A stretch of 64,000 bases of DNA from Zoogloea sp. 1C4 (lineage in GTDB: Bacteria > Pseudomonadota > Gammaproteobacteria > Burkholderiales > Rhodocyclaceae), in NCBI RefSeq assembly GCF_009469605.1, contig NZ_SSXU01000006.1, positions 124,001-188,000 of the forward strand. Direction: 5' to 3'. The notes below the pieces were generated by a model, which ran no database searches, was not told the DNA's origin, and saw only the letters and a list, made by a program, of their open reading frames with translations. The position numbers and the translations under genes are program-made. This document shows positions 6,962 to 55,483 of the stretch, piece by piece. Position 1 is the stretch's first letter. Each line of letters begins with the position of its first letter.

Positions 6962-7063
6962 GCTTGCTCCCTTTGCAGTTATTTTTGAAAGCCGAAACAC
7001 GAGATTCCGGAAGTATCTGCCTGCAAGGCCCGCAGAACAACGATCCAGGTCAACAAAGCGGCG

Positions 7064-8806
7064 CTACCACTCGAAGCCGCGGCGCTGGGGGGCGGGTGCT
7101 GCATCGCCGCTGCTCAGACCCGGGAGAAACTCGCGCAGGGCGTCGTCCTCGGTGCGGTAGGCGGCGTGGGGAGCGAGGTCGTTCCACAGGCCGGTGCGCT
7201 CCAGCACGTCGATGACCTGCTTCTTGAGGCCGCAGCAGGCAAGCTGGCGGCCATCGGCCAGCAGCTGGCGGCGGACGCGGCGCAGGGCCTCGACTCCGCT
7301 GGCGTCGATGGCGTTGATGCCGGCGCAGGAGAGCACCAGCACCGCCATCTGCGGCTGCCCGCGGCAGGCGGCGAGCACGGCGTCTTCAAAGGTGGCGGCG
7401 TTGACGAAGTGCAGCGGGCCGTCGAAGCGCAGGATCGCCACCTGCGGGTGGGGCGGCGGCAGGCCGAAACGCGCCGCGTCGCGCCAGGTGCCGTCCGGGT
7501 GGCGGCCGAGCAGGGCGACCCGTGGCGTCATGCTGCGGTAGATCAGCAGCGCCAGCGACAGGAAAAGCCCGGCGAGGATGCCGATCTCCACGTGGGGCGC
7601 GAAGGCCAGCGTCGCCACGAAGGCCACCGTGCCGGCCAGCCCGTCGTCGCGCCCGGCCTGCCAGGCTTCGCGCAGCTGGGCGACGGACAGCAGCTTGGCC
7701 AGGGTGACGAGGATCACCGCCGCCAGCACCGGCCGGGGCACGTGGGCGATGGGTTCGGGCACCAGCAGCAGCGCGCCCAGCACCACCAGCGCGCCCACCA
7801 CCGAGGCGAGCCCGGTGCGGGCGCCGGCTGCCAGCAGGAAGGCCGAACGGCCGAACGATCCGCTTACCGGATAGGCCTGGCACACCGAGGCGGTGAGCTT
7901 GGCCAGGCCCTGGCCGATGAGCTCCTGGTTGCCATCCCAGCGCTGGCCGGTGCGCGCCGAGGCCAGCTTGCAGCTCGACATGGCCTCGATGAAGCTCACC
8001 AGCGCCAGCACGAAGGCCGAGGGCAGGAGGTCGGTGATCTGCGCCCAGTCGGCCTTGGGCAGGGCGAAGGCGAGGGTCTGCTCCGGCAGCCGGCCGACCA
8101 CCCGTCCGCCGGTGGCTTCGAAATCCGTCAGCCAGCCCACCGCGGCCAGCCCGGCCACCACCGCCAGCACGCCGGGGCCGCCAACCTTGAAGCGCTGGAG
8201 CACCAGCAGCAGCACCACCGCCAGCCCGCCCAGGGCGGCGGAGGGCAGATGCACGTCGGGCATGGTGCACGCGATGTCGACGATCGCCTCGACGAAGGGC
8301 TTCTGCCCCGCCGAGGGCAGGCCCAGCAGGGTGGGCAGCTGGGCGGTGATGATGAGCAGCGAGCAGGCGTTGATGAAGCCGTGGAGCACCGGGTGCGACA
8401 GCAGGTCGGCGAAGTGGGCGAGGCGCAGCAGCCCGAAGGCCAGCTGCAGGATGCCCGCCAGCAAGGCCAGTTGGACGGCCAGCAGCAGCCAGGTTTCGGA
8501 GCCGGGCAGGGCCAGGGGCGAGAGGGCGGCGGCGGTGAGCAGGCTGGTGAGGGCCACCGGGCCGGTGTTGAGCTGGGCGGACGAGCCCCACAGGGCGCCG
8601 ACGATGGACGGCAGCAGGGAGGCGTACAGCCCCACGTAGGCGGGCAGACCGGCGAGCTGGGCGTAGGCCAGGGCCTGGGGGATCGCCACCAGGGCCACCG
8701 TGAAGCCGACCACCAGATCGTTGCGCACGGTGGCCGCGTCGAGCTGGCTGCGCCAGGCGAGAAAGGGCAGCAGACGGCGCAGCAGCGGGGGCAGGGCAGG
8801 GGGCAT
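7064..8806 (-). CDS. SulP-family inorganic anion transporter with STAS domain
   Basis: 580-residue inner-membrane protein of the SulP (SLC26-like) family, which moves sulfate, bicarbonate or other anions. The N-terminal two thirds are hydrophobic, with about 12 predicted helices starting at DLVVGFTVALVAIPQALAYA (SulP signature region) and including LNTGPVALTSLL. The C-terminal STAS domain (about 440-560) contains VLVLSCAGINAIDASGVEAL, whose serine is the usual STAS regulatory position. ATG 8806 is chosen over a TTG at 8845. The substrate cannot be assigned from sequence. It is divergent from the large hybrid kinase at 9048, with about 240 bases between them. Confidence 0.88.
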   Translation of the reverse strand: MPPALPPLLRRLLPFLAWRSQLDAATVRNDLVVGFTVALVAIPQALAYAQLAGLPAYVGLYASLLPSIVGALWGSSAQLNTGPVALTSLLTAAALSPLALPGSETWLLLAVQLALLAGILQLAFGLLRLAHFADLLSHPVLHGFINACSLLIITAQLPTLLGLPSAGQKPFVEAIVDIACTMPDVHLPSAALGGLAVVLLLVLQRFKVGGPGVLAVVAGLAAVGWLTDFEATGGRVVGRLPEQTLAFALPKADWAQITDLLPSAFVLALVSFIEAMSSCKLASARTGQRWDGNQELIGQGLAKLTASVCQAYPVSGSFGRSAFLLAAGARTGLASVVGALVVLGALLLVPEPIAHVPRPVLAAVILVTLAKLLSVAQLREAWQAGRDDGLAGTVAFVATLAFAPHVEIGILAGLFLSLALLIYRSMTPRVALLGRHPDGTWRDAARFGLPPPHPQVAILRFDGPLHFVNAATFEDAVLAACRGQPQMAVLVLSCAGINAIDASGVEALRRVRRQLLADGRQLACCGLKKQVIDVLERTGLWNDLAPHAAYRTEDDALREFLPGLSSGDAAPAPQRRGFEW

Positions 8807-16317: not shown

Positions 16318-17007
16318 TTAGTTGCCTGATTGCGTCCAGCGCTCCGTGCCGATGTCGTAGTGGTAGGTGGTGGGGCGGGCTCTGCCCGGCAGTCCATTGC
16401 GGTCGAGCCTGATCAGCGGGCGGCTGAAGCGCAGTTGAAAGCCGGCCGACGTGCCGAGGACGCTGACGTAGCGGCTCGGTGCGGCAGCGTCGTCGTCGTC
16501 GTCGAGCGCCACGCCGTCGATATTGCCGACCAGACGCGGCAGGCCGTGCTCGCGCAGGAAGAATACCTGTGTTCCGTAGTGAAACTCGGCAGCGAAATCC
16601 ACCAGGATGACCTGGCTGCCGGAGCGGGGTAGGGCGAAGACGGTGAGGTTCGCGGTGTACGCGTCGCCGCCGCCGAACGGGCTGCGGAAGCGAATGTGCT
16701 CGCCGTTCGGATCGTGATGCACGGCGATCAGGCGCAGCCCCGGGTTCTTGCCGCGATCCATCTCCGGATCCCGGCAGATGGCCAGGATCAGGCCTTGAAC
16801 TGCTTGGCGTGCGACCCGGCAGTCGGTTAGGCCTAGGCGGCTGCCATCAAAACCCACTGCGTCGGCCGGTGCTAGTCGGGCGGCCGGAGCGGTGATGGGA
16901 CGGGCGGGCGCAGGCGGAGCGTCGGGCCGTGCGTCTTCCGCGGAAAGGCTTGTGGCAATGATCACGCCTAACAGGGAGGCAAGGCGATTCATCGAGTGCG
17001 GGCTCAT
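16318..17007 (-). CDS. Exported protein of unknown function, partner of the M23 peptidase
   Basis: About 229 residues, not recognised as a named family. The N-terminus has a hydrophobic signal-like segment (MNRLASLLGVIIATSLSAED) and then a Pro/Ala-rich stretch, so the mature protein should be periplasmic or secreted. The rest looks like a beta-rich domain with HHDPNGEHIRFRSPFGGGDA, an acidic DDDDD run and a C-terminal TYHYDIGTERWTQ. ATG 17007 overlaps the stop of the upstream M23 peptidase gene (ATGA), so the two are translationally coupled; ATG 16992 is an alternative start closer to the signal segment. Tight coupling to a murein hydrolase suggests an inhibitor, immunity protein or co-factor, which is inference only. 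Confidence 0.7.
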   Translation of the reverse strand: MSPHSMNRLASLLGVIIATSLSAEDARPDAPPAPARPITAPAARLAPADAVGFDGSRLGLTDCRVARQAVQGLILAICRDPEMDRGKNPGLRLIAVHHDPNGEHIRFRSPFGGGDAYTANLTVFALPRSGSQVILVDFAAEFHYGTQVFFLREHGLPRLVGNIDGVALDDDDDAAAPSRYVSVLGTSAGFQLRFSRPLIRLDRNGLPGRARPTTYHYDIGTERWTQSGN

Positions 17008-17483
17008 CCGGCGATCTCTTTGTGGAGTGGGCATTCACCAAATACGCGGAGGGGGCTCAGCCGGTTTGCCAGGCCGAGCCCCGCCTGGGCTTTGGTGCGG
17101 ATTTCAAAGTGGAGGTGCTGGTCGTTCGCGGGCATCCCCTTGGCGTTTCCGCTTTCCCCCGATGCCGCGATTTGATCGTTACCTTTGACGGCATCGTCCT
17201 CACGCACGAATACCTTGAACAAATGGGCATAAAACGCGTACAGCGTGGCCTCCTCGAACTCGAACTCGAGGCATAACTGCAGGCCGTAGTCGCCTTTGTC
17301 CCGCACGAAAGCCACGCGTCCGTCGGCGATGGCGTAAACGGGGGTCTGGACTCTGGCCGCAAAATCCCAGCCTTGATGCGGTTTGGGCGTGCCGTCAGCG
17401 AACTTGCGCACCATGCCGAAGGTGTTGTTGGTCGAGCATCGACGGATGATGTTGCTTTGCAGCGGCCAGAAGATCGTCGTCAT
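17004..17483 (-). CDS. M23-family metallopeptidase (LytM-like murein hydrolase) without signal peptide
   Basis: 159 residues, essentially one M23 catalytic domain. Zinc ligands and active-site residues are present: His36 and Asp40 in PHQGWDFA, His87 in FYAHLFK, and His123/His125 in QHLHFEIR. The family cleaves peptide cross-links in peptidoglycan. ATG 17483 has a good ribosome site (AAGGAG) 6-10 bases upstream. The N-terminus MTTIFWPLQSNIIRRC is not a Sec signal and there is no membrane segment or SH3/LysM domain, so how it reaches the wall is unclear. Its stop overlaps the start of the exported protein at 17007. Confidence 0.85.
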   Translation of the reverse strand: MTTIFWPLQSNIIRRCSTNNTFGMVRKFADGTPKPHQGWDFAARVQTPVYAIADGRVAFVRDKGDYGLQLCLEFEFEEATLYAFYAHLFKVFVREDDAVKGNDQIAASGESGNAKGMPANDQHLHFEIRTKAQAGLGLANRLSPLRVFGECPLHKEIAG

Positions 17484-17671
17484 GTCCTGCTCCTTTTGGA
17501 GTGATGGCGGGGATGGCTTTCCCCGGGATGAGTGCATGCAATCAATTTATGTCATATCGCGTGCGAATTCCATGTCCGGATTGCGGGGATCCGCCCGTTG
17601 ATCGATGTGCGCGAGCGGGGCCTGGGCGCTGGCTGCTGCGTGCGGGGCGGATCGTGACTGGGCGCCTGCGG

Positions 17672-17677
17672 TATAGT
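17672..17677 (+). promoter_or_regulatory. Possible -10 box of nadE
   Basis: TATAGT lies only 8 bases before the nadE ATG (17686). Transcription starting about 7 bases downstream would give a leaderless or nearly leaderless mRNA. No clear -35 box is seen. Confidence 0.35.
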
Positions 17678-17685
17678 GTCGCCCC

Positions 17686-19735
<2,050 letters not shown>

Positions 19736-19757
19736 TCTGCACACAGATCAGCCCAAG

Positions 19758-19793
19758 GCAGAAGGCCCGGTCATGCACCGGGCCTTCTGCTTT
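19758..19793. terminator. Terminator after glnB
   Basis: A perfect 13-base GC-rich stem (19758-19770 with 19778-19790), 7-base loop, then TTT. It lies between glnB (+) and the convergent NlpC/P60-type gene (-) and may serve both. Confidence 0.85.
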
Positions 19794-19821
19794 CCGGCGC
19801 CCCGCGAGGGCGCGCCGGAGC

Positions 19822-20685
19822 CTAGAGCTTGAGCGCCTTCCAAGTCGTCGGACCGACTTCGCCGTCGGCGACGAGTCCTTGGTCGGCCTGGAAGCGTGCC
19901 ACCGCATGGGCCGTCTGGGGCCCGTAGATGCCGTCCGCCGGCCCCACGGCGTAGCCAAGTACGTTTAGGCGTTCCTGGACCTGCGTGACCCGAGGCGCGC
20001 GCGTCAGCGGCTGGGTTAGGCGGATCACCTTGGCGGGTGGTGTGGGCGAAATGTCCTCGTCGCCGCGGTAGTAGCGGATGCCCGGAATCATCACCCCCAC
20101 GTCCCAGCGCCGGCCGCTGGCCGTGCCACGGATCACGCCAGTCTTGCTGCTGTGGGCCTCGATCGTGCCGCCCGCGCCATCGGAAAAGGCGATGTGGCCG
20201 ATGGCGCCGGGCAGCGGGTAGCGCAGCAGGATCGCGCCAGCGGTGACCAGCGCGTCGGCGACCGGCACCGTGATGCCGGCTGCTCTGGCCTGTTGCGCCC
20301 AGTAGCCGGTGTAGGCGTCGGCGTGGAGGGGGTCGTGACGGGGCTCGGTGCCGAACAGGATGCCCGCCCGCTGGTAAACGCACCACGATACGAACTCGGC
20401 GCAATCCCACGGCCCCTTCCAGCCGGCGTCGCTCATTGGCGCGCGGGCGCCGAGGATGTATTGCTCGCCTTCGTGCTTGAAGGCGAGTTCGAGAATGTCA
20501 GTGCCGGTGATCTCCTGACCGTCTTTCTGCAGGGCGACGGGTATTTCGATCGGACTGAGGGTACTGTTGATGTTCTTGGGCCAGCTCGGCTGGCTTGGAA
20601 AACCGGGTTGTTGCGGCCATCCGGCCTGGCTAGGCCAGCCTGCGCTGCTTTCGGCGGTGGCCAGCGTGGTTTTCTGTTTTTTCAT
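19822..20685 (-). CDS. NlpC/P60-like cysteine hydrolase with C-terminal peptidoglycan-binding domain
   Basis: 287 residues. The N-terminus (about 15-37) is a Trp-Pro-rich repeat stretch (GWPSQAGWPQQPGFPSQPSW) rather than a signal peptide. A papain-fold hydrolase domain follows (about 60-205), with candidate catalytic Cys95 in GPWDCAEFVSW and His164 in GAIGHIAFSDG. The C-terminus (215-285) is a PG_binding_1 domain (VQERLNVLGYAVGPADGIYG ... GPTTWKALKL). The start has a strong GAGGAG site. Predicted role is cleavage of cell-wall peptides, but the absence of a Sec signal makes the export route unclear. It is the last gene of a three-gene minus-strand set behind two lipoproteins, 24 bases after the nearest. 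Confidence 0.8.
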   Translation of the reverse strand: MKKQKTTLATAESSAGWPSQAGWPQQPGFPSQPSWPKNINSTLSPIEIPVALQKDGQEITGTDILELAFKHEGEQYILGARAPMSDAGWKGPWDCAEFVSWCVYQRAGILFGTEPRHDPLHADAYTGYWAQQARAAGITVPVADALVTAGAILLRYPLPGAIGHIAFSDGAGGTIEAHSSKTGVIRGTASGRRWDVGVMIPGIRYYRGDEDISPTPPAKVIRLTQPLTRAPRVTQVQERLNVLGYAVGPADGIYGPQTAHAVARFQADQGLVADGEVGPTTWKALKL

Positions 20686-20709
20686 GGCTCGCTCCTCAAG
20701 GGTGGATTG

Positions 20710-21795
20710 CTACTTTTGGGTGTCGGCAGGCTTCTTGTCGTCCTTGGCTTTGGCGGTTGCGCTGTCGGTCTTCAATTGCCGCTCAATGAGCGCCTCAAAT
20801 CCGTCGGCTAGGTTGCGTGCGGCAAGGCCGGTCGAGAAGAAGCGGCTCAGGCCGTAGTCGATTGACTGCGTCTGGGTGGATGCGCTGAACTGACCAAAGA
20901 CCGAGTACGCGTCCACTTCCCGCGAATCCTCCGGGTTTTCCATCGGCTTGCCATCGACTCCGTTGCTTGTAGTCGACTGCCCGTCGACGCCGGTCTGGTC
21001 ACGCGCCGTGAGTCGCGCACTGCCACCGCTGGCGTTCCAGTCCATTGTCGGAATGATTGCGATGTCGCGACCCGAGTAGCCAATGGTGAAGTTCGGCCCC
21101 TGCTCGGATGTTGTCGTCTGAACGCTGATGCCGATCCCCACGGTCATGCTCTGGCCATAGACGAGGCGGCGGACATGGTGTTGTTCTGGAGGCTTTCCCA
21201 GGGCTGAGGGTGGCTGCGGTTTCTGGCCCTCGTTTGTGGCGTTGGTTTGCTTGTTGGCGGTGTGCTCGGTTGTTGAGGTGTTCTTGGGCTTTGCGGCCGG
21301 CGCAGGGGCTGAGTTGGCCGTTTCCTTCTTGTCACATTCGTCGTTGTCCGCCGGGACTGTGTTTGCCAAGCCCCTCCGATAGCCGTTGGCCAAGTGCGAC
21401 GCCGCGATGCCGGTCGCGAAGAAGCGATCGAGCTTGACATGGCCTTTCTGGCTCTTTGCTGCAGTCGCGTCGGTGCTGCTCCCGCCGAGGAGCGCCCAGT
21501 CGCCCTTGCTGGTGAACTGGCCGAAGACAGAAAGCGCATCGCGCTTGTCGCTGCAGGTCTTGGACCATGCGGTGATCTCCTGAACCGATCCATCCGTCGT
21601 TACGGCCACCGGGACGATGGCGAGATTCTTGTCCTTGTATCCGAGCGTGAAATCGAAGCCCTGGGTGTCGGGCGTGGCGTTGACTGACATGCCGAAGGTT
21701 GTGGCACTGCCGAAGATCAGTGGCGTTCCCGATGAAGCGCAGGCGCATAGACCGAGAACGGGCAAGAGTGCGATCAGACGTGGGGCTGTGTTCAT
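20710..21795 (-). CDS. Lipoprotein with internal duplication, unknown function
   Basis: 361 residues, family not recognised. The signal peptide ends in a lipobox-like LCAC (Cys19), so an outer- or inner-membrane lipoprotein is likely. The mature protein is two copies of one domain: copy A (about 28-141) and copy B (about 213-334). Matching blocks in order are FGSATTFGMSV / YGQSMTVGIGISV, GFDFTLGYKDKNLAIVP / GPNFTIGYSGRDIAIIP, DALSVFGQF / DAYSVFGQF and LDRFFATGIAASHLANGY / LSRFFSTGLAARNLADGF. A low-complexity Thr/Asn/Pro/Lys linker (150-205) joins them and a Lys/Asp tail ends the protein. The start has a consensus AGGAGG site. It lies between a small lipoprotein and the wall hydrolase and is probably co-transcribed with them. 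Confidence 0.8.
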   Translation of the reverse strand: MNTAPRLIALLPVLGLCACASSGTPLIFGSATTFGMSVNATPDTQGFDFTLGYKDKNLAIVPVAVTTDGSVQEITAWSKTCSDKRDALSVFGQFTSKGDWALLGGSSTDATAAKSQKGHVKLDRFFATGIAASHLANGYRRGLANTVPADNDECDKKETANSAPAPAAKPKNTSTTEHTANKQTNATNEGQKPQPPSALGKPPEQHHVRRLVYGQSMTVGIGISVQTTTSEQGPNFTIGYSGRDIAIIPTMDWNASGGSARLTARDQTGVDGQSTTSNGVDGKPMENPEDSREVDAYSVFGQFSASTQTQSIDYGLSRFFSTGLAARNLADGFEALIERQLKTDSATAKAKDDKKPADTQK

Positions 21796-21811
21796 GATGT
21801 GTTTCCTCCTG

Positions 21812-22156
21812 TCAGTGGGTGTTGGGGCTCACGACACAGACCCCGTTGGTGGACGCTTGCAGACGTCTGGCTGCTTCGAGATGTTCGGCCTCGCTAACCC
21901 AGATCACCAGCCTGCATTCCGGCCCGAGGGAAGCCCAGCTCTGCCGCGTGATACCAGCGCTCCAGCCCATCGGTGTCGAGGTGATGCCCAAGCCTTGTAT
22001 TTCGGCGACATGGCTCGTTGTAGGCCCGTCTACGACCACGCTCAAAACGCCCCACCGATGCTCAAGCCGGACTTCACCTGAAGGGGAGTCAATACGGACA
22101 CTCGCACAGCCAGCGGTGATAAATGCGACGAGTAGGGGTAACACAAGCCTGTACAT
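21812..22156 (-). CDS. Small lipoprotein of unknown function
   Basis: 114 residues. The N-terminus MYRLVLPLLVAFITAGC is a typical lipoprotein signal with the lipidated Cys17. The mature part (about 98 residues) contains EVRLEHRWGVLSVVVDGPT and a C-terminal region CRLVIWVSEAEHLEAARRLQ, with no recognised domain. It is the first gene of the set that continues with the duplicated-domain lipoprotein 16 bases downstream and the NlpC/P60-like hydrolase. It is divergent from gltX. Confidence 0.75.
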   Translation of the reverse strand: MYRLVLPLLVAFITAGCASVRIDSPSGEVRLEHRWGVLSVVVDGPTTSHVAEIQGLGITSTPMGWSAGITRQSWASLGPECRLVIWVSEAEHLEAARRLQASTNGVCVVSPNTH

Positions 22157-52000: not shown

Positions 52001-52933
52001 TCAGACCACGGCTTCCTGCTTTTCCTTCTTCACCTGCATGAACTGTTCGCGGCTCACGCCGAGCCACATGACCAGCGGGCTGGCGACGAGGACGGAGGAG
52101 TAGATGCCGAAGCAGATGCCGATGGTGAGGGCCAGCGAGAAGTAGTAGAGGGTCTCGCCGCCGAACAGCAGCATCGAGAGGACCATCATCTGGGTGCTGC
52201 CGTGGGTGATGATGGTGCGGCTGATGGTGCTGGTGATGGCATGGTCGAGGACCTGCGGGGTGGTGAGGCCGCGCTTCTTCTTGAAGGTTTCGCGCACCCG
52301 GTCGAACACGACCACCGATTCGTTCACCGAGTAGCCGAGCACCGCGAGGGTGGCGGCGAGCACCGGCAGCGAGAACTCCCACTGGAACAGCGCGAAGAAG
52401 CCCAGGATGATGATGACGTCGTGAAGGTTGGCGATGATGGCCGAGACGGCAAAGCGCCATTCGAAGCGCATCGCCAGGTACAGCACGATGCCGCCGATCA
52501 CCAGCAGCAGGGCCATGGCGCCGTCGGAGGCGAGTTCCTTGCCCACCTGCGGGCCGACGAATTCGACGCGGCGCAGCTCGGCCTTGGGGCCGTCGATGGC
52601 GGCGAGGCTGGCCATCACCTTCTCGCTGACCTTGGCGGTCTCGTCGCCGGAGCGGTTGGGCAGGCGGATCAGCACGTCGCGGGAACTGCCGAAGTTCTGC
52701 ACCTGGGCGTCCTGGTAGCCTTCCTTGCCGAGGGCGTCGCGGAGCTTTTCGAGGGCCGGGGGCTCGGCGTAGCTGACTTCCATCAGGGTGCCGCCGGTGA
52801 ACTCGACGCTGAAATGCAGGCCCTTGGTGGCCAGGAAGAACACCGCGAGCAGGAAGGTGATCAACGAGATGACGTTGAACACCAGCGCGTGCTTCATGAA
52901 GGGGATGTCTTTGCGGATCTTGAAGAATTCCAT
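52001..52933 (-). CDS. secF: Protein translocase subunit SecF
   Basis: 310 residues, six membrane helices with a periplasmic loop after the first. Motifs: FSVEFTGGTLMEVSY, FEWRFAVSAIIANLHDVIII and YSVNESVVVFDRVRETF, then THGSTQMMVLSMLLFGGETL. With SecD it forms the proton-driven complex that helps complete protein export through SecYEG. It follows secD on the minus strand, but the gap of about 130 bases holds a REP-like palindrome pair, unlike the usual tight secD-secF junction. Confidence 0.95.
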   Translation of the reverse strand: MEFFKIRKDIPFMKHALVFNVISLITFLLAVFFLATKGLHFSVEFTGGTLMEVSYAEPPALEKLRDALGKEGYQDAQVQNFGSSRDVLIRLPNRSGDETAKVSEKVMASLAAIDGPKAELRRVEFVGPQVGKELASDGAMALLLVIGGIVLYLAMRFEWRFAVSAIIANLHDVIIILGFFALFQWEFSLPVLAATLAVLGYSVNESVVVFDRVRETFKKKRGLTTPQVLDHAITSTISRTIITHGSTQMMVLSMLLFGGETLYYFSLALTIGICFGIYSSVLVASPLVMWLGVSREQFMQVKKEKQEAVV

Positions 52934-52981
52934 GGCGGTGATGCGCTCCGTGCTGGAGTTGATGTTGCTTGGGTTGCCGTC

Positions 52982-53049
52982 GTCGGACTGAAGTCCGACC
53001 TACAGGGTGCTGCGGGGGCGGGGATTTGTAGGTCGGGCGTCAGCCCGAC
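52982..53049. repeat. REP-like palindromic pair between secD and secF
   Basis: GTCGGACTGAAGTCCGACCTACAG (24 bases, 52982-53005) faces the inverted variant TGTAGGTCGGGCGTCAGCCCGAC (53027-53049). Each unit is itself a hairpin (GTCGGACT/AGTCCGAC). The same element appears at 55567-55638. Confidence 0.75.
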
Positions 53050-53065
53050 GCCCCGCCCGGGGGCA

Positions 53066-54925
53066 TCAGATACCCGGTTTCCACACCTGGCCGATGGCGA
53101 GCTTTTCGAGCTTGCGCTTCTTGCCGTAGATCATGTTGACCAGCCCGCGCGAGACGAGGATGGCGCTGAACATGGAGGTGAGGATGCCCAGGCAGTGCAC
53201 CACCGCGAAGCCGCGCACCGGGCCGGAGCCGAAGACGAGCAGGGCGATGCCGGCGATCAGGGTGGTGACGTTGGAGTCGAGGATGGTGTCGAACGCCCGG
53301 TCGTAACCGGCGTGGATGGCGGCCTGGGGCGTGGAGCCGTTGCGCAGCTCTTCGCGGATACGTTCGTTGATCAGCACGTTGGCGTCGATCGCCATGCCCA
53401 GGGTGAGCGCGATGGCCGCGATGCCCGGCAGGGTGAGCGTGGCCTGGAGCAGCGACAGCAGGGCCACCAGCAGCAGCAGGTTGGACGCCAGCGCGAGCAC
53501 CGACACGAGGCCGAACAGCATGTAGTAGGCGCACATGAAGATGGCGATCGCCACGAAGCCCCACAGGGTGGAGTGGAAGCCCTTGGAGATGTTCTCGGCG
53601 CCGAGGCTTGGGCCGATGGTGCGTTCCTCGATGATCTCCATCGGGGCGGCCAGCGAGCCGGCGCGCAGCAGCAGCGCGGTGTCGGTGGCTTCTTCGGAGG
53701 TCATGCGGCCGGAGATCTGCACGCGGCCGCCACCGATCTCGGCGCGGATCACCGGGGCGGTGACGACTTCGCCCTTGCCCTTTTCGATGAGCAGGATGGC
53801 CATCCGCTTGTTGATGTTCTCGCGGGTGATGTCCTTGAAGATGCGGGCACCGGCGGAATCCAGGGTGAGATGCACGGCGGCTTCGTGGGTCTGGCCGTCG
53901 AAGCCGGGCTGGGCGTCGGTGAGGCGCTCGCCGGTGAGGACGACCTGCTTCTTGACCAGCAGCGGGTTGCCGCCACGCTCGGTGTAGAGCTCGGTGCCCG
54001 GCGGGACGTTGCCCTGCAGCGCGGCTTCGAGGCCGCCCGGGGTGTCGTCCACCAGGCGGATCTCGAGGGTGGCGGTGCGGCCCAGGATGTCCTTGGCCTT
54101 GGCCACGTCCTGCACGCCGGGCAGCTGGACCACGATGCGGTCGAGGCCCTGCTGCTGGATCACCGGCTCGGCCACGCCGAGTTCGTTGATCCGGTTGTGC
54201 AGGGTGGAGATGTTCTGGCGGATGGCGAATTCCTGGATGGTCTTCTGGGCCAGGGGGGTGAGGCTGGCGGTGAGCTTGTAGTCGGCGCCGTCCTGGCCTT
54301 CGACCAGTTGCAGGTCGTTGTTGGCGGCGGAGATCACGCTCCGGGCGCGGGCCTGGGTTTCGGTGTCGCGGAACTTGATGACGACGGCGGCGCCTTCACG
54401 GCCGATGCCGGCGTGGCGGACGTTCTTGTCGCGCAGCAGGGTGCGCAGGTCGCCAGCGGTGGCGTCGAGGCGCTTGGTGACGGCGCCCTTCATGTCCACC
54501 TGAAGCAGGAAGTGCACGCCGCCGCGCAGGTCGAGACCCAGGTACATGGGCAGCGCGTGGATCGAGGTGAGCCACTGGGGGCTGGCCGACAGCAGGTTGA
54601 GCGCGACCACGTAAGAAGGGTCGGCGGCATCCGGGTTGAAGGTCTTCTCGATGGCGTCCTTGGCCTTGAGCTGGGTGTCGGTGTCGCGGAAGCGCGCGCG
54701 CACGCTGGTGAGATCGGCGAACAGGCCGTCATGGGCGATGCCCGCGGCCTTGAGGCTCTCTTCGACGCGGGCCATGGTGGCGGTGGCGTCGAGCTTGAGG
54801 GTGGCCTTGCCGCTGGAGACCTGGACGGCGGGCACCTCTCCGTAGAAATTCGGCAGGGTGTAGATCAGTCCCCACAGCAGGACGATGCCGATGAGGAGAT
54901 TTTTCCAGAGAGGGTAGCGGTTCAT
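53066..54925 (-). CDS. secD: Protein translocase subunit SecD
   Basis: 619 residues, six membrane helices with a large first periplasmic domain (about 30-440). Motifs: YPLWKNLLIGIVLLWGLIYT at the N-terminus, LGLDLRGGVHFLLQVDM, INELGVAEPVIQQQGLDRIV, AIALTLGMAIDANVLINERI and RAFDTILDSNVTTLIAGIAL. It partners SecF in the accessory translocase. It lies 87 bases after yajC. Confidence 0.96.
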   Translation of the reverse strand: MNRYPLWKNLLIGIVLLWGLIYTLPNFYGEVPAVQVSSGKATLKLDATATMARVEESLKAAGIAHDGLFADLTSVRARFRDTDTQLKAKDAIEKTFNPDAADPSYVVALNLLSASPQWLTSIHALPMYLGLDLRGGVHFLLQVDMKGAVTKRLDATAGDLRTLLRDKNVRHAGIGREGAAVVIKFRDTETQARARSVISAANNDLQLVEGQDGADYKLTASLTPLAQKTIQEFAIRQNISTLHNRINELGVAEPVIQQQGLDRIVVQLPGVQDVAKAKDILGRTATLEIRLVDDTPGGLEAALQGNVPPGTELYTERGGNPLLVKKQVVLTGERLTDAQPGFDGQTHEAAVHLTLDSAGARIFKDITRENINKRMAILLIEKGKGEVVTAPVIRAEIGGGRVQISGRMTSEEATDTALLLRAGSLAAPMEIIEERTIGPSLGAENISKGFHSTLWGFVAIAIFMCAYYMLFGLVSVLALASNLLLLVALLSLLQATLTLPGIAAIALTLGMAIDANVLINERIREELRNGSTPQAAIHAGYDRAFDTILDSNVTTLIAGIALLVFGSGPVRGFAVVHCLGILTSMFSAILVSRGLVNMIYGKKRKLEKLAIGQVWKPGI

Positions 54926-55012
54926 GGTCTGGCGAAAAGGAGAGGAAACGGGTGTTGCAGAGACGGTGCTGCGATGCGAAACGGCCGGAGCAGAGCCCCG
55001 GCCGGATGGCGA

Positions 55013-55345
55013 TCAGATCGACTTGAGGGTGCCCTTGGGGAGCACGGCGCCGATGGATTGCTTCTGGACGACGATCTGGGTGTTGGGGGCCACTTCGACG
55101 TGCACGTAGCCGTCGCTGATCTGGGTGACCTTGCCGACGATGCCGCCTTGGGTGAGCACTTCGTCGTTCTTCTGCAGACCTTCGAGGAGGGCCTTGTGTT
55201 CCTTGGCGCGCTTCATCTGCGGGCGAATCATGAGGAACCACAGCACGATGAACATGAGGATCATCGGCAGCAGGCCGGTGAACGTGGACATCGGGTCTTG
55301 CGCGGCGGCCGGGGCGGCTTGGGCAAAGGCGTTGGAAATCAGCAC
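55013..55345 (-). CDS. yajC: Preprotein translocase accessory subunit YajC
   Basis: 110 residues: a short N-terminal tail (ISNAFAQAAPAAAQDP), one membrane helix (LLPMILMFIVLWFLMIRPQ) and a cytoplasmic beta domain (NDEVLTQGGIVGKVTQISDG). The GTG at 55345 has GGAG 6 bases upstream and gives the usual YajC N-terminus; the TTG at 55369 is unlikely. First gene of the yajC-secD-secF set. The tgt/queA genes that often precede it are not here. Confidence 0.93.
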   Translation of the reverse strand: MLISNAFAQAAPAAAQDPMSTFTGLLPMILMFIVLWFLMIRPQMKRAKEHKALLEGLQKNDEVLTQGGIVGKVTQISDGYVHVEVAPNTQIVVQKQSIGAVLPKGTLKSI

Positions 55346-55483
55346 ATTGAACTCCGGTGAGGGATGCAAAGTTGCAGATTATATCAGGGGGGGGAGGGCC
55401 GGCGACCGGTTTGCGCCGACAGCCGGCGGGCAAAACAAGAGTGCTTCCGGGCTAGCATGAAATCCTGGTTCGGAGGCAGGGCG

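Follow-up and report, generated by a model that had tools for sequence, protein, structure and literature searches.

A candidate orphan type VI effector-immunity pair and a separate lipoprotein-hydrolase module in Zoogloea sp. 1C4

Metallopeptidases of the M23 family are known among the effectors of type VI secretion systems (T6SS). Tke of Klebsiella pneumoniae is a candidate T6SS effector with the domain order LysM-SLT-M23, for which no immunity protein is reported as identified (PMC9550808). In Acinetobacter, LysM-M23 effectors lie behind VgrG in what has been called VgrG neighbourhood 1, where they are labelled Tse4 (PMC6838775), a protein summarized elsewhere as both lytic transglycosylase and endopeptidase (PMC11796386, PMC10433429). 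WHIX-type T6SS effectors can carry M23 or NlpC_P60 domains, with M23 counted in 162 WHIX proteins (PMC12135965), an M23 candidate effector outside the main cluster has been proposed next to an orphan VgrG of Enterobacter (PMC10763514), and further M23-containing effectors have been reported (PMC12992299, PMC11014884). Here we analyse 64,000 nucleotides from Zoogloea sp. 1C4 (contig NZ_SSXU01000006.1, positions 124,001 to 188,000; hereafter the window), in which a first-pass annotation had noticed two nearby loci that each combine a peptidoglycan (PG) hydrolase lacking a signal peptide with exported partners, and had likened both to effector-immunity pairs of T6SS or of contact-dependent inhibition (CDI). 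We find that a single reading does not suit both loci: the first is probably an orphan T6SS pair, whereas the second appears to be a module of another kind.

Locus 1 (16318-17483, minus strand) consists of two genes (Table 1). The upstream gene encodes a protein with a Pfam Peptidase_M23 match (E 6e-20); its likeliest start is the ATG at 17483, behind AAGGAG, a longer open reading frame starts at 17537, and the stop lies at 17004. The HxxxD and HxH motifs are invariant in an alignment with two T6SS effector M23 domains, and a hydropathy check finds no hydrophobic N-terminus, so that we regard the protein as lacking a signal peptide. The partner gene begins with the ATG at 17007, within an ATGA overlap with the M23 gene, and runs to a stop at 16318; its product has a signal-peptide-like N-terminus by the same check. 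Signal peptides and lipoproteins were judged throughout from this crude hydropathy check and a lipobox motif rather than with a dedicated predictor. The Pfam match, the hydropathy and the ATGA junction thus agree with the initial description of an M23 peptidase without signal peptide coupled to an exported protein of unknown function. For that partner there is no Pfam family above the cut-off, no NCBIfam, PADLOC or PHROG match and no tblastn match in a plasmid collection. The lone PADLOC match among the five window proteins considered here (E 0.03, to a different kind of protein) was taken as chance.

To place the M23 domain we searched it against the same plasmid collection (72,556 records, of which 40 matched at E 1e-8). 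The top match by E-value was the C-terminus of a 675-aa K. pneumoniae protein (94 bits, E 2e-20) with the domain order LysM-SLT-M23, which is presumably Tke, judging from the identical domain order. Behind its gene lie two exported paralogues, 46% alike by blastp, and a PAAR gene. An A. baumannii match is a LysM-M23 protein encoded directly behind VgrG and followed by an exported-looking gene, and a Citrobacter match is followed by an exported gene homologous to the Klebsiella paralogues. In pairwise comparisons the window domain scores 91 bits against the Klebsiella domain and 66 bits against the Acinetobacter domain, vs 42, 40, 35 and 25 bits against the remaining four M23 domains encoded in the genome. 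A 13-domain tree unites the window, Klebsiella and Acinetobacter domains (support 87/89), and this grouping, set against three of the own M23 proteins, held in 200 of 200 bootstrap trees. By these sequence comparisons, then, the closest counterparts of the window M23 are, within the set compared, the M23 domains of T6SS effectors.

Two side observations belong to the Klebsiella record. CP125156.1 (L073), filed as a plasmid, measures 5.4 Mb and is chromosome-sized; and the two exported paralogues, which occupy 8492-10293 of L073 directly behind the Tke-like LysM-SLT-M23 gene, are good candidates for the Tke immunity protein.

The genome itself (5.0 Mb in 140 contigs, completeness 100) contains a full T6SS. 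TssC and TssK were each found once in a family search, both on contig C59, where Pfam further identifies VgrG (Phage_GPD), DUF2169, a PAAR-like domain, an HNH nuclease, TssE (gp25) and Hcp. By eye the contig also carries ClpV-, TssG-, TssF-, TssB-, TssA- and TssM-like genes, a second Hcp, a kinase, a phosphatase, an FHA protein and an Rhs protein. The search for VgrG, Hcp and PAAR elsewhere in the genome that the first-pass annotation had proposed therefore comes out positive, with VgrG, two Hcp, a PAAR-like and an Rhs-like protein. Its remark that the window lacks secretion genes holds for T6SS and CDI, of which our reading of the 47 gene calls in the window shows none, but not for general secretion, since SecD/SecF/YajC-like genes (by eye) lie at 52001-55369.

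The same genome holds three sister pairs of similar build. Two are in the T6SS cluster: an N-acetylmuramidase without signal peptide (PF11860, 6e-61) whose gene overlaps that of an exported 169-aa protein by ATGA (L071, C59:7001-27000, at 7083-8134), and an M15 peptidase without signal peptide (2e-21) with the gene of an exported 128-aa protein 14 bases upstream (L071, 18009-18880). These two enzymes are among the eight of ten C59 proteins matched in the Pfam run, and the two unmatched proteins are their exported neighbours. The third, on contig C96 (L081, C96:26000-42000, at 7028-8355), is a second orphan pair, in which a PG-binding-like and M23 protein without signal peptide is joined by ATGA overlap to an exported 173-aa protein. 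Overall the genome encodes five M23 proteins, of which three have a membrane anchor or a signal for export (by eye and hydropathy; two of these look MepM- and NlpD-like by eye). The other two have neither, and each of them is coupled by ATGA to an exported partner. Across the four pairs the exported partners are mutually dissimilar (no blastp match better than E 0.9), and the three sister pairs provide an internal comparison within one genome.

We therefore read locus 1 as probably an orphan T6SS effector-immunity pair, because the features that mark a T6SS wall-hydrolase effector occur together: an intact domain akin to effector domains and without signal peptide, a coupled exported partner next to it, and, in the same genome, both a T6SS and further pairs of this build. 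Specifically, the 159-aa metallopeptidase would be made in the cytoplasm, loaded on the T6SS encoded on the other contig and injected into the periplasm of neighbouring cells, where it would cut peptidoglycan cross-bridges. The exported partner would reside in the producer's own periplasm and block the enzyme when sister cells fire.

A number of observations weigh against this reading. The M23 pair is not on the contig of the T6SS, and no VgrG, PAAR, Hcp or adaptor gene is found beside it in the window. The M23 protein has no delivery domain, with just 34 residues ahead of the Pfam match. Its partner resembles neither the three Klebsiella and Citrobacter candidate immunity proteins (blastp, hhalign) nor the Acinetobacter one (blastp). 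The pair is also very rare: of 200 genomes from the order, none but the own one matched at E 1e-12. As for the kinship, the group support does not reach the 95/80 that the tool sets as its mark, 47 of 500 label shuffles perform equally well on so few tree rows, and in the plasmid search a cyanobacterial M23 (68 bits) is level with the Acinetobacter match (67 bits), so that the T6SS link rests mainly on the Klebsiella type. In wider searches, with three M23 domains as queries, only the own genome passed among 274 genomes of the class, at a cut-off (1e-25) that was too strict, and no relative of the M23 protein appeared in the viral contigs scanned. The partner search returned 3 of 200 genomes, the own one included, the other two (G175 and G177) at E about 7e-4. 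The G175 match was dropped as chance, since by eye it falls within a rhodanese-like gene and no M23 gene could be seen next to it. A convincing relative of the partner did not turn up in these searches.

In an alternative reading, the M23 protein would be a wall enzyme for housekeeping or stress that leaves the cytoplasm with no classical signal, and the partner would be its activator, chaperone or adaptor rather than an antidote. Cell-division M23 proteins with adaptor partners exist, and the partner is unrelated to every immunity protein with which it was compared. We nevertheless consider this explanation unlikely: the three other M23 proteins of the genome mentioned above do carry an export signal or membrane anchor, the window domain is closer to T6SS effector domains, the distribution is very patchy, and the GC content at third codon positions (GC3) is below that of most neighbours. 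CDI of the CdiA-CdiI type was rejected for the window genes, which are free-standing and not the C-terminus of a large two-partner exoprotein. By eye, contig C59 does carry a haemagglutination-type exoprotein and a transporter-like gene, and the genome's five M23 domains all lie elsewhere.

The features of both loci are listed in Table 1; all five genes are among the gene calls in the window. Locus 2 (19822-22156) lies 2.3 kb from locus 1, separated from it by NAD-synthetase-like and P-II-like genes (named by eye) on the plus strand. Its order of transcription is small lipoprotein, large lipoprotein, hydrolase. The genes are 16 and 24 bases apart, and AGGAGG or GAGGAG precedes the downstream starts. 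GC3 of the five genes is 0.66-0.82, vs a median of 0.89 for the 42 other gene calls in the window, some of which are false frames, and between 2 and 7 of the 42 are lower; as a sign of foreign origin this is suggestive only.

Table 1. Genes of the two loci, in window coordinates.
Gene product	Length	Position	Strand	Features
LytM-type M23 metallopeptidase without signal peptide; candidate orphan T6SS effector	159 aa	17004..17483	-	Pfam Peptidase_M23
Exported partner; candidate immunity protein	229 aa	16318..17007	-	ATG in ATGA overlap
NlpC/P60-fold hydrolase without signal peptide, C-terminal PG_binding_1	287 aa	19822..20685	-	Pfam and fold match
Large lipoprotein	361 aa	20710..21795	-	LCAC-type lipobox (by eye), two internal repeats
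Small lipoprotein	114 aa	21812..22156	-	TAGC lipobox (motif check)

The grouping of an NlpC/P60-like hydrolase without signal peptide with two lipoproteins, as first annotated, is confirmed. In the hydrolase, Pfam finds PG_binding_1 (E 5e-20), and CHAP only below the cut-off. An AlphaFold model of moderate confidence (mean predicted local distance difference test score, pLDDT, 63.8; the Pro/Trp-rich N-terminus 1-48 under 50) assigns residues 59-200 to the NlpC/P60 fold (6b8c, Z 13.3, root-mean-square deviation 3.3, 116 residues aligned), which bears out the NlpC/P60 call, and residues 225-287 to a PG-binding domain (5nm7, Z 11.0, deviation 1.6, 62 aligned). C95, H164 and E176 are invariant in 7 of 7 alignment rows, which would fit a Cys-His hydrolase. 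PHROG lysis families match the PG-binding domain. For the large lipoprotein the lipobox was recognized by eye and not flagged in the motif check, and its cysteine is invariant in 6 of 6 rows; in the small one the check did flag the lipobox. Neither lipoprotein has anything above the Pfam cut-off or a PHROG family. The usual sorting rule sends lipoproteins without Asp after the cysteine to the outer membrane, and since neither window lipoprotein has this Asp, both would be predicted to be sorted there.

The large lipoprotein (20710-21795) looks internally duplicated, the repeats reading ...FGQ..T.GI...LGY...DA.SVFGQF...FF.TG.AA..LA.G... (by eye), and a relative on contig C86 of the same genome has a single repeat (by eye). 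An AlphaFold model of the large lipoprotein, built from an alignment of 6, was left unused (mean pLDDT 34.6).

Relatives of the large lipoprotein occur in 5 of 330 genomes of the order, the own genome included, and in Cognatazoarcus halotolerans. None was found in the plasmid collection (tblastn) or in the viral contigs scanned, and a lipoprotein profile matched the own genome only among 369 genomes of the class. Six loci can be compared with their surroundings, namely the window, C86 of the own genome, Cognatazoarcus, and the genomes G023, G175 and G122; a further one, in G030, is cut at a contig end. In all six a small lipoprotein adjoins the large one. The small lipoprotein of the window is similar to those of Cognatazoarcus, G023 and G175 (E 3e-34 to 2e-9), whereas sequence kinship to those of C86 and G122 was not borne out by tblastn and profile, and these share only the place.

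The enzyme beside the lipoproteins differs from locus to locus. In the window and Cognatazoarcus it is an NlpC/P60 and PG-binding hydrolase (63% alike), while in G023, G175 and G122 it is a PG-binding and GH19-type hydrolase, non-homologous to the NlpC/P60 type; those of G175 and G122 are 65 and 58% alike to that of G023, GH19 is above the Pfam cut-off in G122 only, and for this type the PHROG lysis-family match spans catalytic and binding parts. A signal peptide is absent from all five hydrolases, whose sole common Pfam domain is the PG-binding one. The order of the genes also depends on the type: the lipoproteins come first with the NlpC/P60 enzyme and the hydrolase comes first with the GH19 enzyme, overlapping the small lipoprotein gene by GTGA in G023 if a GTG start is used. 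C86 has the lipoproteins and no hydrolase; the large one lies at L058 5427-6439, with the small one before it and an M50-like membrane protease (by eye) adjacent.

The hydrolase is likewise found by itself. Relatives occur in a Lysobacterales locus, at a gammaproteobacterial contig end and in three Flavobacteriia loci, with no lipoprotein relatives near any of the five within the fetched DNA. In one hydrolase scan, 20 of 26 loci matched the PG-binding end only and are left out of the discussion of the family; in another, 75 of 300 genomes matched, and among the matches listed all those outside the own genome were in or next to the PG-binding domain. TssC gave no match in the five genomes with hydrolase relatives, though the Pfam TssC model may miss the T6SS type of Bacteroidota. 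In the lipoprotein carriers, TssC was found in 2 of 5 genomes (own and Cognatazoarcus; not in G023, G175 and G030) and TssK in 2 of 6 (the same two; not in G122, G023, G175 and G030). Since G122 and G175 are only 86% and 89% complete, absence there is less sure. Sorted by hydrolase, the NlpC/P60 type has a T6SS in 2 of 2 genomes and the GH19 type in 0 of 3, a tiny sample, and for the set in the window a T6SS role is possible.

Membrane proteins accompany some of the sets. The hydrolase gene of G122 shares an overlap with the gene of a membrane protein, with the large lipoprotein following, and this membrane protein is weakly similar (22%, E 2e-7) to one beside the Cognatazoarcus set; these two proteins, at L090 2613-3740 and L003 8871-10034, have no Pfam family. 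The membrane proteins of G023 and G175 are not alike. Two further neighbourhoods are noted for their own sake. In Flavobacterium (L006, 5789-7153) a fusion of a membrane protein and Endonuclease I that matches YLATT below the cut-off adjoins a relative of the window hydrolase, and on contig C453 of G030 (L059, 2594-7636) a PG-binding protein without signal peptide lies beside a 1341-aa patatin-like protein with a PG-binding N-terminus (by eye).

Taken together, locus 2 appears to be a module separate from locus 1, in which an endolysin-like hydrolase without signal peptide stands with two lipoproteins that do not seem specific for a catalytic fold. Enzyme-specific immunity does not fit, because the lipoproteins accompany unrelated enzymes, and T6SS immunity of this form is poorly supported also because TssK was found in only 2 of 6 carriers and the large lipoprotein and the hydrolase each occur alone. 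The effector-immunity proposal of the first-pass annotation is therefore strengthened for the M23 pair, by the T6SS, the nearest M23 domains and the sister pairs, and is not supported for the hydrolase with lipoproteins: relatives of the lipoproteins occur with non-homologous hydrolases and in genomes in which TssC or TssK was not detected, and lipoproteins and hydrolase also occur apart from each other. Its broader form, in which both loci are T6SS or CDI pairs of one kind, would draw on the T6SS of the own genome and on that of Cognatazoarcus, where the three genes of the set recur, but given the distribution of locus 2 and its swapping of partners we regard it as quite improbable.

Two other explanations of locus 2 appear about level, and each is possible without being favoured. 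In one, the locus is a lysis or wall-opening module outside phages, modelled on holin-endolysin-spanin sets or on the type X secretion idea: the hydrolase would be released at a trigger, and the lipoproteins would help to breach or to guard the envelope. An endolysin-like module of this sort, for wall opening or for protection, is at least as likely as enzyme-specific T6SS immunity. The hydrolases are endolysin-like by their PHROG lysis families, the lipoproteins are retained where one enzyme type replaces another, and the G122 membrane protein whose gene overlaps that of the hydrolase, with its weak likeness in Cognatazoarcus, may be a release route. However, no membrane protein stands beside the window set, those of G023 and G175 differ, the window lipoproteins match no PHROG family, and hydrolase relatives occur without lipoprotein relatives. 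The last point also counts against the other explanation, in which an effector would be paired with two lipoprotein immunity proteins that recognize the PG-binding domain or shield the wall, with delivery by a route other than T6SS in genomes that have none. The PG-binding domain shared by the five hydrolases would provide the common target, the C86 lipoproteins would fit orphan immunity, the possible GTGA overlap in G023 follows the usual order of effector then immunity, and both genomes with the NlpC/P60 type have a T6SS. Yet the same lipoprotein families occur with non-homologous enzymes, they come first in the window and in Cognatazoarcus, and searches detected no TssK in 4 of 6 carriers and no TssC in 3 of the 5 checked.

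A more general version, which we put forward with somewhat greater reserve, is that the lipoproteins form an outer-membrane module that would serve any adjacent endolysin-like enzyme, NlpC/P60 or GH19 being exchangeable against a constant background of lipoproteins and PG-binding domain, in a bacterial rather than phage process of wall opening or self-protection; in some members the membrane protein would be a possible release gate. In the literature searched, which extended to pYEATS/SLATT-type systems and PMC7159879, we found no description of such a module. If new, locus 2 would matter more than locus 1, since constant lipoproteins with a swapped hydrolase would represent a route for endolysin-like enzymes without signal peptide outside phages. 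The M23 pair is the best-supported part of these findings, and the lipoprotein module with exchangeable hydrolases, small and recurrent, is the more interesting one.

Compared with described systems, locus 2 is close to the endolysins and holin-endolysin-spanin sets of phages, with which it shares a PG-binding and NlpC/P60 or GH19 enzyme, the lack of a signal peptide and lipoproteins nearby; it differs in that its neighbours are not prophage and no holin is seen in the window. For locus 1, WHIX effectors show the same enzyme classes as T6SS toxins, although the window M23 protein has no room for WHIX (no search with a WHIX profile was made). To the Acinetobacter type, likened here by architecture and not identified as Tse4, the window domain is 34% identical over 144 aa, and both have an exported or exported-looking gene downstream, but the Acinetobacter protein is multidomain and linked to VgrG while the window protein stands alone. 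The likeness to the Tke type is stronger: 38% identity over 148 aa to the C-terminal M23 domain, a common GNAxGM...HLHFExR...GxANRLxP signature, and exported genes behind the Klebsiella gene as behind ours. The differences are that the window M23 comes without LysM and SLT, that the partners are dissimilar and that no PAAR gene is adjacent. Because the residues ahead of the M23 match hold no other Pfam domain, the window protein is a relative of the M23 domain rather than a full-length member of the Tke or Tse4 families. Locus 1 belongs to an already known kind, because M23 candidates for T6SS effectors outside main clusters have been proposed before and M23 domains occur in WHIX proteins; within that kind, an M23 effector that stands alone, with a partner of no known family, would extend the T6SS arsenal by a compact pair of enzyme and inhibitor.

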